Shown piece by piece: positions 12,129-25,555 of a stretch of 25,889 nucleotides of DNA; within the stretch, counting starts at the first letter, position 1; the number at the start of each line of letters is the position of its first letter. Location: positions 1 through 25,889 of the forward strand of contig JAJRTR010000147.1 of the NCBI GenBank assembly GCA_024278215.1, in the 5' to 3' direction. The notes under the pieces are model-generated. The model saw only the letters and a list, made by a program, of their open reading frames with translations, did not search any database and had not been told where the DNA came from. The position numbers were made by a program, and so were the translations under genes. The DNA comes from a bacterium (lineage in GTDB: Bacteria > UBP15 > UBA6099 > JAJRTR01).

Positions 12129-14480
12129 ATGGCGAAAAAACCTGTAAAAAAAAAGATTGTCAAAAAGAAAGCGTCCACTGCAAAAAAGACAACTAAGAAA
12201 AAAGTTCCTGTAAAACGAACAGTCAAAAAAAAACGAACAGTCAAAAAAAAGGTAACAAAAGCGGTAAAAAAAACGCCTCGGAAAACAGGCGGCTGCATGA
12301 ACTCGTGCTTCACGGTAATGGCAGTGATAATGGTTATTATTATAGTTTCGCTGCTGACTGTTTCGGCTGCGACAATTTCTCTTATTTCCAAATATACCAA
12401 CGAACTTCCCAACCTCGACGCGGTTTCCATACCGGTGCCAAAAGAGAAAACAAAAGTATATGACTCGAGCGGACATATTATTGCCGAACTTTATTTTGAA
12501 AATCGCGAATTCGCCAACTCACAGGAAATCCCCGACATAGTAAAACTCGCTTTTATAGCTATTGAAGACGAGCGTTTCTACAAACACCACGGTGTGGACT
12601 TCGAAGGTATCGCAAGAAGTGTTTTCGTAGCGATAAAAACCCGGGGAAGAGCTGTGCATGGTGCCAGCACTATCACACAACAACTGGCGCGGCATATTTA
12701 CCTGAACGAATACCGGGAAGAAGGCACCGGCAGATACGAAGCAACCCTTATACGGAAGCTGAAGGAAGCTATACTTGCTATAGCGCTGGAGAAAAAATAC
12801 TCGAAGGACGAGATACTTGCACACTATTTAAATCTCATCAGCTACGGACACGGCGCTTATGGCATAAAAACCGCAACGAAAACTTTTTTCAAGAAAAAGC
12901 TCAGCGAGCTCACACTCGATGAGGCCGCCCTGCTCGCTGCCGTTATCAATGCGCCGAGCAGGTATTCTCCCTACTATCGACCGACAAATGCCATAAACAG
13001 ACGCAATCTCGTACTGGGTAAAATGCTCGAACTTCATTTTATATCGAAGGGCGAGTATGAAACCGCTGTCAGGCGGCCACTGAACCTTGCCGAACTCAAG
13101 GGGCCCGCACACGAGAATTATAAGGCTCCCTACTTCATCACATACGTAATAGACCAACTAGAACATGAGGATTTCCCATATCCGATCGACAGCAAATCAC
13201 TATTCTCGGACGGCTACAGGATTTACACGACACTTGACCTGAAGAAAAACCGGATCGCCGAAGAAGCCTTGAAATACGGCATGAAAATGGCGGCGGATAG
13301 AAAAGCGAATGTGAAGCAGGGCGCTATTATCGCCATCGAACCGCAGACCGGCAGAATTATCGTGATGGTAGGCGGTACTGATTTCAAAAAATCGAAATTC
13401 AACCGCACGTGGCAGGCCATGCGCCAGCCGGGTTCGGCGTTCAAGCCGTTCGTCTACATTACCGCCATCAGGCAGGGATACTCGATGGAAAGCACGCTGC
13501 TTGATGAAAAAGTCTGCTTTGACGTTTATCCCGAAGAGTATTGCCCCAACAACTACGACCACAAATATAAAGGGCTCGTTACCCTGCACACCGCAATGAA
13601 GTTTTCGAGAAACATACCTGCCGTAAAAGTAGGCAACCTTGTGCGTCCCGAAAATATAATCAAGACAGCCCGCGACATGGGCATTAAAAGCAAAATGTCA
13701 CCTATGCTTTCATTGCCACTGGGCACTTTCGAAGTTACCGTTATAGAGATGGCATCGGCCTACGCGGTCCTGGCGAACGGCGGCAGATATGTCGAACCTG
13801 TTGCCATCGAGAGAATCGAGGATTCACATGGAATAGTGCTCTACCAGAAGAAATATCGTGCGGGTCGCAAGATTCTCGAAGACAATACAATCGCCCGAAT
13901 TGTTCCCGTCATGGAAGACATAATTCAGGGCGGAACCGGCACAAGGGCGAAAATCAGAACGAAAAAAGGTATCAGACCCGCCGCAGGCAAAACCGGCACC
14001 ACGAGTGATTTCCGCGACGCGTGGTTTGTCGGTTTCACTCCGGGGCTCGCCACAGCAGTGTGGTTCGGCAACGACGATAATTCGCCTATGAGAAACATGT
14101 ATAAAGGTCGTCCTGTCGGGAAAGGCGTTACAGGCGGTTCGATACCTGCTTCGACATGGGGCTATTTCATGAAAAAAGCACTGGCGGGAAAACCGATACG
14201 TTACTTCAAACTTCCACCGGCCAGTCCGATGAAAACCTACCAGATAGAGATTCCGGCAGCTTCTGAAACTGAAAAACTCATGAAAAGTCCGATGTCGGGC
14301 GCGGAAGGACGCAACTACAATTTCCAGGAGCCGGATGTGCTGGATTTCAGCAATGGCGGCAGGGATAAAATCCGTAAACCAGCGCACAAAACCCGCAGGC
14401 GTGAGACAGATATGGAAATGGAGTTTATCGAGCCTGATCGCAAGCAAAAGAAACCTTCAGACGTCGAGGAATTCTTCTGA
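12129..14480 (+). CDS. Class A penicillin-binding protein 1A with Lys-rich cytoplasmic tail
   Basis: Bifunctional peptidoglycan synthase: glycosyltransferase plus transpeptidase. The 783 residues begin with a cytoplasmic tail (1-55: 24 Lys, 3 Arg, no acidic residue) and a single membrane helix (about 61-85). The GT51 domain shows catalytic Glu146 in AIEDERFYKHHGVDFEG and GASTITQQLARHIYL. The transpeptidase domain has SxxK at Ser436-Lys439 (PGSAFKPF), SRN at 493-495 and KTGTT at Lys621. The C-terminal 60 residues are charged and low in complexity. The tail carries a tandem RTVKKK repeat and four runs of eight or nine A. Family members usually have a short basic tail; this one is unusually long and H1-like. 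ATG at 12129 is the only start that fits. mutL follows after 61 bp. Confidence 0.95.
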   Translation: MAKKPVKKKIVKKKASTAKKTTKKKVPVKRTVKKKRTVKKKVTKAVKKTPRKTGGCMNSCFTVMAVIMVIIIVSLLTVSAATISLISKYTNELPNLDAVSIPVPKEKTKVYDSSGHIIAELYFENREFANSQEIPDIVKLAFIAIEDERFYKHHGVDFEGIARSVFVAIKTRGRAVHGASTITQQLARHIYLNEYREEGTGRYEATLIRKLKEAILAIALEKKYSKDEILAHYLNLISYGHGAYGIKTATKTFFKKKLSELTLDEAALLAAVINAPSRYSPYYRPTNAINRRNLVLGKMLELHFISKGEYETAVRRPLNLAELKGPAHENYKAPYFITYVIDQLEHEDFPYPIDSKSLFSDGYRIYTTLDLKKNRIAEEALKYGMKMAADRKANVKQGAIIAIEPQTGRIIVMVGGTDFKKSKFNRTWQAMRQPGSAFKPFVYITAIRQGYSMESTLLDEKVCFDVYPEEYCPNNYDHKYKGLVTLHTAMKFSRNIPAVKVGNLVRPENIIKTARDMGIKSKMSPMLSLPLGTFEVTVIEMASAYAVLANGGRYVEPVAIERIEDSHGIVLYQKKYRAGRKILEDNTIARIVPVMEDIIQGGTGTRAKIRTKKGIRPAAGKTGTTSDFRDAWFVGFTPGLATAVWFGNDDNSPMRNMYKGRPVGKGVTGGSIPASTWGYFMKKALAGKPIRYFKLPPASPMKTYQIEIPAASETEKLMKSPMSGAEGRNYNFQEPDVLDFSNGGRDKIRKPAHKTRRRETDMEMEFIEPDRKQKKPSDVEEFF

Positions 14481-21058: not shown

Positions 21059-22144
21059 TCAGGAATCGAGGAGATGGAGCGCGCCGGGGTCGAGTTGGAG
21101 TTTGACATCTGTGCCTTCCTGCAACATGCCTGCGACTTTCGGGTTGGGTGCCTGGACAAGTATCTTTTGACCGGCGGCGGTGAATGTGTACTCGATGTCA
21201 CTGCCCATATAGACGGCGCGTGAAACGGTAGCGGGTATACCGTCCGCGTTTTCCGGCAGTATTTCGAGAGCCTCAGGCCGCAGGACCGCTTCCACCCGCC
21301 TGTCCAGCCTGATCTTATGTCCGGGTTGAATGATAGTGAATTCGCCGCCGAGTATTCTCGCTTTGATGTTGTCGCCGTCGATGGACTGGATTTCCGCTGG
21401 AACAAAGTTGACTTTGCCGAAGAATGAAGCGACGAAGCAGGAGGCGGGCCGCTCGTATATGTCGCGCGGCGTGCCGACCTGTTCGATAATTCCTTCGCGC
21501 ATGACGACAATGCGGTCGGATATGCAGACGGCTTCTTCCTGGTCGTGTGTGACGTATATGCTGGTGATGCTCAGACTCTGCTGTATGCGACGTATTTCGT
21601 CGCGCATCTGCACCCTGAGCCGGGCATCGAGGTTGCTGAGTGGCTCGTCGAAGAGCAGTACGGAAGGTTCGTTGATGAGAGCGCGAGAGAGAGCCACACG
21701 TTGTTGCTGGCCGCCGGAAAGTTGTCCGGGCATGCGGTCTTCCATCCCTTCGAGTCCGACAGAAGCCATGATATTCACGACTTTATCTTTGATCTGCGCG
21801 CGAGGCATTTTCTTTTTTATGCGCAGACCATAGGCGATGTTGTTGAAGATCGTCATGTGAGGAAACAGCGCGTAGCTCTGGAACACCATCGATGTATTAC
21901 GGCGGTTGGGCGGCAGGTATCCAACGGGGGCGCTGTCGATGAAAATCTCGCCCTTGGTCGGAATTTAGAATCCGCCGATCATCCGCAGTATTGTCGTTTT
22001 GCCGCAGCCAGAGGGGCCGAGAAGTGTGAATAATTCACCCTTTTTTACGGAAAACGAGACATCGTCGACGGCAACTACCGCCCTGTTCTGCTTGTCTTCG
22101 AAAATCTTTGTTATGTTTTTCAGTTCAAGTCCGGCTGAGGACAT
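21059..22144 (-). pseudogene. ABC transporter ATPase (FbpC/PotA-like) interrupted by an in-frame TAA
   Basis: Would be the ATPase of the permease encoded upstream. Read through, it would be 361 residues, the normal size for a TOBE-containing importer ATPase. The first 59 codons hold Walker A ([11 protein letters not shown], about 41-51) and end at LRMIGGF. Codon 60 is TAA (21965-21967), where relatives have a glutamate (GFE-PT), so a single GAA-to-TAA change would explain it. The same frame continues with IPTKGEIFID, the Q-loop MVFQSYALFPHMT, LSGGQQQRVALSRAL, Walker B SVLLFDEPLSNLDA and a C-terminal TOBE region. The start ATG at 22144 follows AGGAG; a TTG six bases upstream is less likely. 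Restart downstream would lack Walker A. It could be a true nonsense mutation, a base-call error, or readthrough. Confidence 0.85.
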
Positions 22145-22165: not shown

Positions 22166-23467
22166 TTATCTCGTTTTCGAGAACAATGATTTTTTCCACA
22201 GGTCGTAGCGGTCGAGATACCCGTTATCTTTGTACCATTCGATTGTTTCGCGCATACCTTCCAGCAGATCGGGATACAGAAATTCGTAGCCCAGCGACCT
22301 GAGTTTATCGTTGCTGAACGTATACACCGCTTTGAGATAGTAGACCATGTCTTTCTCGATGAAGGGGCGCGACCCTGTGATTTTCGACAGTGAGCGCGAG
22401 ATGTCGGCCAACTGGTTGCCGAGGCTGAAAAATAAGTCGCGCGGTATGAAGATGGGCATCATTCGCACACCCATCAGCGGGCATACGAATTCCGCGAACT
22501 CACGCAATGTGTATCTCGTATTGTCGATTACGTTATAAGCTTCTCCGATTGCTTCTTTCCTGTCGGCGAGAAAATGCGCCGCGTTGCATACATCCCTGAC
22601 ATGTACGCCAACCATGTAGTTGTCGATGTTGACGGGGAACGGAAGTATCGGGAATTTCGCCATTAAGAACAGGATCGTGGCCATGCCGTAAGTGTTGCGC
22701 GGGCCGTAGACGGGCGCGGGTCTGACGATGCTGACCGGCAACCCTTTTTCAGTGTATTCGAGTCCGACTTCTTCCTGCATGAGTTTCGAGCGTTCGTAGT
22801 TTGTGCCGGGTCTCTTGGCGTTGTCCTCGACGACGGGCAGTTCGTCCGCTTCCGGGTAGCCGTAGACCGAAACGGTCGAGAAAAGCAGGAACCGCTTCAC
22901 GCCGGCGTCGAGCGAGAAGTCGCAGATATTGCGCATGCCGAATACGTTGACCCTCTCGCACAGTTCCCAGGGAGCCTCGTAGTCGAATATCGCTGCCGGA
23001 TGATAGACATAGTCTATTTTATTCGCAAAAAGTTTTTTAAGCGACTCGGTGTTTGTGATGTCCGCCGGGATGAAGTTGGCTTTCGCGTTGAGAAATTCGC
23101 GTGGAGCGGATTCAAGGTCTGTTGCGATTACGTTGTAGCCCTTTTCTATCAGCAGGTCGACCATGTGACCGCCGGCGAACCCGCACGCGCCTGTCACAAG
23201 TGTTGTCAGCTGCGCATTTGATTCGGCAGCTTTCTTTTTGGAAACAGTTTTTTTGCCGGACACAGTTTTTTTCGAAGATTTTTTCGCAGTCGCTTTCCTT
23301 GTTGTTGTCTTCTTAACTGGTTTTTTCTTTACAATCTTTTTCTTTGCCGCAGTCTTCTTTGCAGATTTCCCGGCAGTTGTTTTTTTCTTTGCCGCAGTCT
23401 TCTTTTTTGGGGCAGCTTTCTTTTTGGGTGCCGATTTTTTCTTAGCAGTTGTTTTTTTCTTTGCCAT
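22166..23467 (-). CDS. Extended SDR / NAD-dependent epimerase with histone-H1-like tail
   Basis: A 433-residue protein. Residues 1-81 are a Lys/Ala/Thr/Ser tail (36 Lys, 1 Arg, no acidic residue before Glu82) resembling bacterial histone-H1-like or AlgP-type tails. The remainder is an extended short-chain dehydrogenase/epimerase of the 3-beta-HSD/sugar-epimerase group: nucleotide-binding VTGACGFAGGH (about 91-101), the VYHPAAIFDYEAPWE block, LLFSTVSVYG and the catalytic YERSK, then IVRPAPVYGPRNTYG. Substrate unknown. The start chosen is the ATG at 23467, nine bases after GGAGG; a longer frame starting at 23497 would add ten unlikely residues. It sits between the ABC permease and the ATPase, only 21 bp before the latter, which is an odd place for such an enzyme. 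Confidence 0.88.
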   Translation of the reverse strand: MAKKKTTAKKKSAPKKKAAPKKKTAAKKKTTAGKSAKKTAAKKKIVKKKPVKKTTTRKATAKKSSKKTVSGKKTVSKKKAAESNAQLTTLVTGACGFAGGHMVDLLIEKGYNVIATDLESAPREFLNAKANFIPADITNTESLKKLFANKIDYVYHPAAIFDYEAPWELCERVNVFGMRNICDFSLDAGVKRFLLFSTVSVYGYPEADELPVVEDNAKRPGTNYERSKLMQEEVGLEYTEKGLPVSIVRPAPVYGPRNTYGMATILFLMAKFPILPFPVNIDNYMVGVHVRDVCNAAHFLADRKEAIGEAYNVIDNTRYTLREFAEFVCPLMGVRMMPIFIPRDLFFSLGNQLADISRSLSKITGSRPFIEKDMVYYLKAVYTFSNDKLRSLGYEFLYPDLLEGMRETIEWYKDNGYLDRYDLWKKSLFSKTR

Positions 23468-23740
23468 TGTCCTGTACCTCCACGGAATCGATATCATGCA
23501 CCGTGCACAATCTTGACGAGTCGGTTTTTCGTGCGTAAAGAAAACACGTAAACCGCGCGATGAGGCGGTAATTACCAGACGGAGTTCCGAAGCGCAGGTT
23601 ACGGAACAGACGATTCACAGGTTCTTACCGGTTCCCGCCGAATGTTGTGTTGCACACGGGCCGTGCTCCCGTCCTCTCTCTATATTTTCCGCAATTGCTT
23701 CCGAAATATTCTATCATTATCTGTTTCTATGCGCTAATAC

Positions 23741-25555
23741 TCATAATAAAGTCTGCATCTGCGCCGCTTTCATATTGCGCTCGCCCATGCCTCTGACGAG
23801 GAGTTGGATCACGCCGAGAGCAACGAGAACGAACAGCATCAGGACAACACTGAGAGCGGCGGCCTGGCTGTAATCGCTGTTGTCTATAGCTTCGAGAATA
23901 GCGATTGTGATAAGAGGCAGGTTACCTGTTGAAAGAAAAATCACGGCGCTGATGGCCGTCATACATTTAACGAAACTGTAAGCGAGTCCGCTGAAAAAAG
24001 CCGGAGCGATGAGCGGCAGGGTAATATTGAAGAAAGTCTGGGCGCTCGATGCGCCGAGGTCGAGTGATGCTTCTTCGATGGAGTTGTCGATCTGTTGTAT
24101 ACTCGCGATTCCCGACCTGATGCCGACAGGCATATTCCTGAAAACGAAAAGCATAACGATGAGAAACGGCGAGCCGTAAAAAAGCAGGTCATGTATCTTT
24201 TCCGCCGTAATCGAACCGAAAACGCCTGTCATGAAAGCCGGTACTTTGTTGAATGCGAGTATGTAGCCTATGCCGACAAATGTGCCGGGTGTCGCGAAAG
24301 TCAGCATGGCAGTGAATTCCATAAGGCTGCGTCCGGGAAACCTGCGGCGCACGACAAGGAAGGCAATCATCATGCCGATCAGGCCTGTGATCGGTGTAGC
24401 CACGGCGGCAAGTTCCAGTGAGATGAGTATCGCCCGCAGGTAGTCGGAACCGCTTTCGAAAAGTTCGACATAATTCTTTATGGTCAGTGTGTTGTCCGCG
24501 CCCCACTGCTTTGTAAACGAACCGAAAACCACCATTCCGTAGAAAAGGAAAATCAGTCCCACGAAGAATAAGCAAGCAGCGAAAAAACCGGCTTTTGTCG
24601 GCAGAGAAACTTCCTTGATCGCGCCGCTGCCGGGTTTGCCTGTAACTGTCACAAACGATTTCTTCTCGAGCCAGTACTTTTGTATCATGAAAGCGAGGAG
24701 AGAGGGGATCAACAGCATGATGGCGAGCAGCGACGCGCCGGAAAGGTCGTGCAGTGCGCCGACAACGAGCAGGTACGCCTGTGTTGTGAGCACTTCGTAG
24801 TTGCCGGAAATCACCAGAGGCGTTCCGAAATCCGCCAGCGACTCGATGAACAGCAACAGCATTGAAGCCGCCACACCCGGCAGCGACAGCGGAAATGTGA
24901 CTGTCCAGAACACACGCCAGCGCGACGCGCCAAGGTCCATCGCCGCTTCTTCAAGCGATGTATCTATCGCTCCCAGAACTCCCACCAGCAGCAGGAACGC
25001 CATAGGGAAATATGACAGCGTTTCGAATGTCACCAGTCCGTTGAATCCGAATATTTCGAATCCCATTTTGTAGATGTCGACGCTGTGTGCGTAGAGGAAA
25101 TTTGTAATGCAGCCGTTGCGGCCAAGCAATAGAATGCCCGCCATAGCAACAACAAACGGCGGCGAAATTATAGGGAATGTTGCGACAACTCGGAAAAAAC
25201 CCTGGCCGGGCATCCTGATGCGGGTCAGTGAATATGCGAAGATGTAGCCGACAAAGGTTCCGATCGAAGCAACCCAGAAGCCTACTTTTACGCTCCTGAG
25301 AAAAGGCCCGTAATAATATGATTTGGTAACTATATCGGCGATGGATGAAATCAGGGAGCGGTCTTCACGGAACAACCCAGTCGCCGCGACAAGATACAGC
25401 GGATAGACAACATAGACACCGAGCAGCGCAAAAATACCGATGATAATAATCAGCAACGCCGGCTCGGAAGCCAGTCTTCGCAGTTCGATAACTATTTCTT
25501 TGAGACGTTTCATTACCGGGTTTTTTCCAGGTTGCGTAAGCTGTATTCCGCTCAC
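23741..25555 (-). CDS. FbpB-like ABC importer permease with two fused membrane domains
   Basis: Inner-membrane permease of 604 residues, the length of the fused ferric-iron-type family (FbpB/AfuB/SfuB); iron is the most likely substrate, but thiamine or phosphonate relatives exist. About twelve membrane helices fall in two halves, each with an EAA loop that docks the ATPase: EEAAMDLGASRWRVFWTVTFPLSLPG in the first half (two adjoining pieces) and EEASLDLGASSAQTF followed by NITLPLIAPAF in the second. The halves are joined by a linker around residues 290-320. The GTG at 25555 lies about 26 bp after the predicted transcription start; an ATG at 25513 (MKRLKEIV) has a GGAAAA-type site and is an equal alternative. 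No substrate-binding protein gene lies in the window. The ATPase follows on the same strand after the epimerase. Confidence 0.93.
   Translation of the reverse strand: MSGIQLTQPGKNPVMKRLKEIVIELRRLASEPALLIIIIGIFALLGVYVVYPLYLVAATGLFREDRSLISSIADIVTKSYYYGPFLRSVKVGFWVASIGTFVGYIFAYSLTRIRMPGQGFFRVVATFPIISPPFVVAMAGILLLGRNGCITNFLYAHSVDIYKMGFEIFGFNGLVTFETLSYFPMAFLLLVGVLGAIDTSLEEAAMDLGASRWRVFWTVTFPLSLPGVAASMLLLFIESLADFGTPLVISGNYEVLTTQAYLLVVGALHDLSGASLLAIMLLIPSLLAFMIQKYWLEKKSFVTVTGKPGSGAIKEVSLPTKAGFFAACLFFVGLIFLFYGMVVFGSFTKQWGADNTLTIKNYVELFESGSDYLRAILISLELAAVATPITGLIGMMIAFLVVRRRFPGRSLMEFTAMLTFATPGTFVGIGYILAFNKVPAFMTGVFGSITAEKIHDLLFYGSPFLIVMLFVFRNMPVGIRSGIASIQQIDNSIEEASLDLGASSAQTFFNITLPLIAPAFFSGLAYSFVKCMTAISAVIFLSTGNLPLITIAILEAIDNSDYSQAAALSVVLMLFVLVALGVIQLLVRGMGERNMKAAQMQTLL

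Follow-up and report, generated by a model that had tools for sequence, protein, structure and literature searches.

A histone H1-like polycationic tail on extended short-chain dehydrogenases of the candidate phylum UBP15: a possible tether to the nucleoid

Histone H1-like tails are already known in bacteria on nucleoid proteins, on a topoisomerase and on proteins that position granules. The window analysed here, a stretch of 25,889 nucleotides that forms contig JAJRTR010000147.1 of a UBP15 genome assembly (GCA_024278215.1), raises the question of what such a tail might do on a metabolic enzyme, as it carries a gene for a short-chain dehydrogenase (SDR) that begins with about 80 residues of this kind. 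No SDR with an H1-like tail is reported in the literature searched, most subscription papers being outside its coverage, and within that literature the SDR is a new carrier. If the reading proposed below is true, a repeated and charge-conserved fusion would mean that bacteria can use a generic polycation to set the location of an enzyme. The proteins described here also add a set of H1-, HU- and SWIB-type nucleoid proteins to the picture of a nearly unstudied candidate phylum. The gene has the following features.

22166..23467, minus strand: tailed extended SDR, coding sequence of 433 amino acids plus stop, from the ATG at 23467 (start codon, orthologue alignments)
23222..23467, minus strand: H1-like polycationic tail, residues 1-82 (composition, HC2 profile, AF2 disorder)
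23477..23481, minus strand: Shine-Dalgarno-like GGAGG, 9 nt before the ATG at 23467
22214..23206, minus strand: extended SDR (NAD-dependent epimerase/dehydratase) catalytic domain, residues 88-418 (profiles, structure)
23171..23194, minus strand: cofactor-binding glycine motif TGACGFAG, residues 92-99, in which T92, G93, G96 and G99 are invariant in orthologue alignments
22784..22798, minus strand: catalytic YERSK (Y224-x3-K228), in which Y224 and K228 are invariant among tailed SDRs

The first-pass annotation had counted 36 Lys and one Arg with no acidic residue in the first 81 residues, and our recount agrees: residues 1-81 comprise 36 Lys, 15 Ala, 12 Thr, 6 Ser, 4 Val, 3 Pro and 1 Arg, with neither Asp nor Glu, and the earliest acidic residue is E82. 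Lys makes up 4.9% of the residues encoded by the long ORFs of the window's genome, and at this share the binomial probability of at least 36 Lys in 81 residues is approximately 1e-25, so the Lys content of the tail is not due to chance; the probability that 81 residues lack Asp and Glu is approximately 2.5e-5. By AF2, pLDDT is below 50 at residues 1-5 and 7-67, and residues 1-67 are thus predicted to be almost wholly disordered. The description of the tail as histone H1-like is borne out by composition. Against the HC2 profile (PF07382, cut-off 40) the tail alone reaches 17.1 bits (E 0.006), below the gathering score, and the tailed SDR reaches 27.2 bits in the genome scan, also under the cut-off.

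A longer reading frame could begin 10 codons earlier, at the ATG at 23497 (MISIPWRYRT...), which has no Shine-Dalgarno sequence (SD); since GGAGG lies 9 nt upstream of the ATG at 23467, the latter is preferred and the earlier codon is probably 10 codons too early. The candidate starts after codon 1 are a GTG within the tail (V69), a GTG at V91 and an ATG at M102, the last of which already lies past the beginning of the GxxGxxG motif. None of the three is preceded by an SD, so that a start giving a tail-less protein is not sensible.

The tail is followed, as the first-pass annotation had proposed, by a complete Rossmann-fold enzyme. Pfam Epimerase (PF01370) matches residues 90-313 with an E-value of 4.5e-35 and 121.6 bits (cut-off 20.9), and AF2 pLDDT is mainly above 90 from residue 90 onward; by profile and predicted structure the enzyme is a complete extended SDR, and we read the protein as a soluble oxidoreductase or epimerase. 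The best structural neighbours are nucleotide-sugar epimerases and dehydratases, with fold matches to 6pmh (Z 35.5) and 4zrm (Z 35.0). The enzyme is also matched by the 3Beta_HSD profile (7.9e-16) and by the structure of a sterol-4-alpha-carboxylate 3-dehydrogenase, 6jkg (4.5e-15). The nearest NCBIfam model, the hopanoid-associated sugar epimerase HpnA (TIGR03466), scores 110.1 bits and falls short of its cut-off of 367.65. To judge from these matches, the substrate class may be 3β-HSD-like or nucleotide-sugar. No HU domain (PF00216) was found in the tailed SDR with Pfam profiles, and it is thus not an HU protein of the HupB type.

Conservation was examined in seven genomes of the order, designated G000 (the window's own) to G006; the next nearest genomes share with the window's genome the taxonomic domain only. 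Orthologues are present in G001, G002, G003, G004 and G005 at 70-74% identity, the G005 copy being a contig-end fragment, and no orthologue was found in G006 (88% complete). The fusion is conserved in these relatives: a Lys/Ala/Pro N-terminal tail is present in all six orthologues, including the window's own, from three families of the order. These tails are 39-89 residues long and carry a net charge of +13 to +36 with zero to two acidic residues. A GGAGG-type SD precedes the tail start in five of the six (G000, G001, G003, G004 and G005; the orthologue loci with an SD like that of the window are L009, L010, L011 and L013), and the G002 orthologue has a GTG start after a G-rich stretch. The first-pass annotation had named close homologues that all start at the Rossmann fold as the finding that would overturn its reading, and the close homologues do not show this. 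The tail is missing only from homologues at approximately 45% identity or below: tail-less paralogues (at most 45% identity) that start at the Rossmann fold occur in the same genomes, among them sister paralogues of similar pI, and some 35 more distant homologues from outside the order likewise start at the fold without a long tail.

Within this group the tail varies freely in its letters but retains its charge. Within genus g2, dN/dS is approximately 0.4 for the tail and 0.01-0.02 for the core. Among three congeners the residue is changed at none of 21 Lys codons versus 10 of 54 other tail codons (Fisher p 0.053), and when neutral evolution is simulated to 0.3 substitutions per site or beyond, the Lys residues are quickly lost, the probability of retaining at least 19 Lys being 0.0025 or less. 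The pattern in these alignments is that of a disordered region under selection for charge, not sequence.

Similar tails are found on other SDRs. G002 encodes two further tailed SDRs that belong to other subfamilies, L024 (36% identity) and L207/C109 (approximately 35-40%). An IQ-TREE phylogeny of 44 SDRs requires three changes to account for the tailed members, and the starred branches force three. A single origin of the tail was rejected on this tree, and the fusion seems to have arisen more than once, on at least three SDR branches, a conclusion made less sure by one tailed row (G002_b) that is a long branch and whose placing is weakened accordingly. In another lineage, G155 has an SD-preceded SDR with a short K/S/T/R-rich tail that begins MAKK (MAKKAQGSTKKTTAKSSSRTAASSRR) and bears a weak likeness to the tail in the window. 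When 241 genomes were searched with a profile, no other full tail came up outside the order; the other early-starting matches there were rejected, most of them because stop codons interrupt the stretch where the tail would lie or because the frame upstream is an unrelated one rich in Arg or Asp. Viral contigs and plasmids yielded distant SDRs only, with no Lys-rich tail in the viral ones inspected, and among the matches listed those of plasmid SDRs begin no earlier than residue 82. Because the SDR family is very large, recurrence by itself is no proof of a special link.

A second Lys-rich tail is encoded on the opposite strand of the window.

12129..12293, plus strand: Lys-rich cytoplasmic N-terminal tail of a PBP1A-family protein, 55 residues before the TM helix (coding sequence 12129-14480)

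In G001, G003 and G006 the orthologues of this protein start with a K/P/A tail that is shorter, and the tail is absent from a PBP1A paralogue on G000 contig C199 and from the G005 homologue. A 1.17 Mb sample (26%) of the window's genome contained very few plausible genes with comparable Lys-rich stretches, and a genome-wide Lys bias was rejected as the source of the tail on this ground. Apart from the SDR and PBP1A, they are genes for a stand-alone H1-like protein of 85 residues (L210:4625-4879, contig C116), for an HU protein that ends in an H1-like Lys/Ala tail (L253:6035-6391, contig C9; Pfam 7.3e-29), two genes on a phage-like contig, and a few genes for hypothetical or ribosomal-type proteins. 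Contig C39 of G002 (L203, L206) encodes an H1-like protein of 93 residues together with a SWIB-domain protein whose N-terminal tail is H1-like. When aligned to the H1-like and SWIB tails, the SDR tail beats 300 of 300 composition-shuffled copies, and against the HU and PBP tails 68 and 37 of 300 shuffles reach its score, which is no excess; repeats inflate tail alignment scores, so that these comparisons are optimistic. An HMMER search of the window's genome with the tail found little, composition correction blunting such a search. Two further observations were made along the way. The phage-like contig (L195, G000 contig C46, 11166 bases) carries its two Lys-rich small proteins adjacent to one another, and a minus-strand frame of 1858 residues (L291:11900-17473) encodes a very long protein with a Lys-rich stretch inside.

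Several characterized proteins offer points of comparison. Mycobacterial HupB resembles the SDR in having a Lys/Ala/Pro-rich tail on a folded domain, and its H1-like tail is required for nucleoid association (PMC5676037); HupB, however, binds DNA itself and has a C-terminal tail, whereas the SDR is a metabolic enzyme with the tail at its N-terminus. The tailed HU of UBP15 (L253:6035-6391) is of the kind described for HupB. Actinobacterial topoisomerase I (TopA) is, like the SDR, an enzyme that bears a Lys-rich tail of the H1 type, and Lys repeats keep it on DNA (PMC7398561), but TopA acts on DNA and no DNA substrate is known for the SDR. The disordered KPAA-like tails of AlgP and PhaF bind DNA and position another object relative to the nucleoid (PMC9239181); these are long C-terminal KPAA repeats on an alpha-helical or phasin domain with no enzyme, in contrast to the 82 N-terminal residues of the SDR. 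Chlamydial Hc2 (PF07382) shares composition and repeat style with the SDR tail but is a whole nucleoprotein, whereas the feature described here is a tail that scores under the 40-bit cut-off. On the side of the enzyme, extended SDRs (HpnA, GalE-like epimerases and 3β-HSD-like enzymes; PF01370) share with the tailed protein the Rossmann fold and the TGxxGxxG and YxxxK motifs, and the Mth375 and TM0509 epimerases match it in fold with Z of approximately 35. A long tail distinguishes it from all of the approximately 35 inspected from outside the order, that of G155 being a short one.

Retention of the tail in relatives suggests that the enzyme is kept at the chromosome or at some other negatively charged surface. 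By analogy with the systems above, we propose that the disordered polycation may act as a tether to nucleic acid, with the nucleoid as the most likely site, and we give this proposal an even chance of being right. The tail would bind polyanions by charge alone, chromosomal DNA being the most likely and RNA a possible partner, and the enzyme would become concentrated on the nucleoid with its catalytic domain free on a flexible linker. The least sure step is what this would achieve: an NAD-linked reaction might be placed at the nucleoid, or DNA occupancy or Lys modification might tune the location of the enzyme. A fuller scenario, in which UBP15 SDRs would be moored to the chromosome by borrowed H1-like tails of at least three origins and would carry out an NAD-linked reaction at the nucleoid, is offered tentatively, as we think it somewhat likelier to fail than to hold. 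The first-pass annotation had listed nucleoid, RNA, polyphosphate and anionic envelope polymers as potential partners. The nucleoid is favoured among them because comparable tails occur in the same genomes on HU, on SWIB and on stand-alone proteins of the H1 type, and polyphosphate has lost ground. Counting against the nucleoid are the similar tail on a membrane protein, PBP1A, in the same window, which keeps an anionic membrane or envelope partner plausible, the alignments to the HU and PBP tails that do no better than shuffles, and gene neighbours with no tie to DNA metabolism. Since a tail purely of the Lys/Ala kind binds polyanions of every sort, the sequence does not discriminate between DNA, RNA and anionic lipid.

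The tail could instead be a polybasic membrane anchor that fixes the enzyme to the cytoplasmic membrane on its acidic inner side, where a substrate such as an isoprenoid, a sterol-like compound or a lipid-linked sugar would be found; the tail of PBP1A would serve PBP1A in the same way. We consider this unlikely, even though PBP1A has its Lys-rich cytoplasmic tail in the window and in three relatives and the 3Beta_HSD and 6jkg matches are to lipid-substrate enzymes. Membrane anchors of this type are usually polybasic plus hydrophobic, and the SDR tail is nearly devoid of hydrophobic or aromatic residues and has no acylation signal; moreover, the top structural matches are nucleotide-sugar enzymes, and what most resembles the tail in these genomes are proteins of the DNA type. 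A general region for RNA, ribosome or condensate binding or for solubility, with no single partner and kept as useful or harmless, would accommodate the strong drift of letters and length, composition alone being kept, and RNA and DNA binding are not separable by sequence. Such a region is nevertheless rather improbable, as charge is retained well beyond neutral expectation, the tail is present in every orthologue found and absent from sister paralogues of similar pI, and like tails appear to have arisen on other SDR branches.

Polyphosphate or another storage granule is a very unlikely target. AlgP (polyphosphate) and PhaF (PHA) do have Lys/Ala/Pro tails (PMC9239181), and KPAAKPKP-like stretches occur in the tails of G001, G003 and G004, KPAA tandem repeats being absent from that of G000. 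Against this, a search of the seven genomes found neither PPK1 nor PhaC, and PPK2 in G002 only, with controls detected for each; as the genomes are 67-97% complete, the absence is not absolute. The squalene-hopene cyclase C-terminal family was likewise not found in any of the seven. With key enzymes not found in the window's genome, the polyphosphate, PHA-granule and hopanoid readings are all weakened. It is scarcely credible that the tail is an artefact of a wrong start codon or of low-complexity expansion in one assembly. The tail DNA is of low complexity, with two copies of an 18-bp unit at 23435-23470, but the tail is in frame in six orthologues from separate assemblies, five of them with a clear SD, and no usable start with an SD lies downstream of it; an artefact was rejected on the SDs and the six orthologues.

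The surroundings of the gene were also inspected. Gene order around the SDR is not kept between the window's genome and its relatives, and no neighbour tying the enzyme to DNA metabolism was seen around it. The idea that the gene shares an operon with the ABC transporter on either side of it (permease 23741-25555, ATPase 21059-22144) was rejected, as this order is not conserved in relatives. The ATPase frame, on the minus strand, has an in-frame TAA after MIGGF (at approximately 21967) and is otherwise intact; the TAA reflects either a nonsense mutation or a mistake in the assembly.
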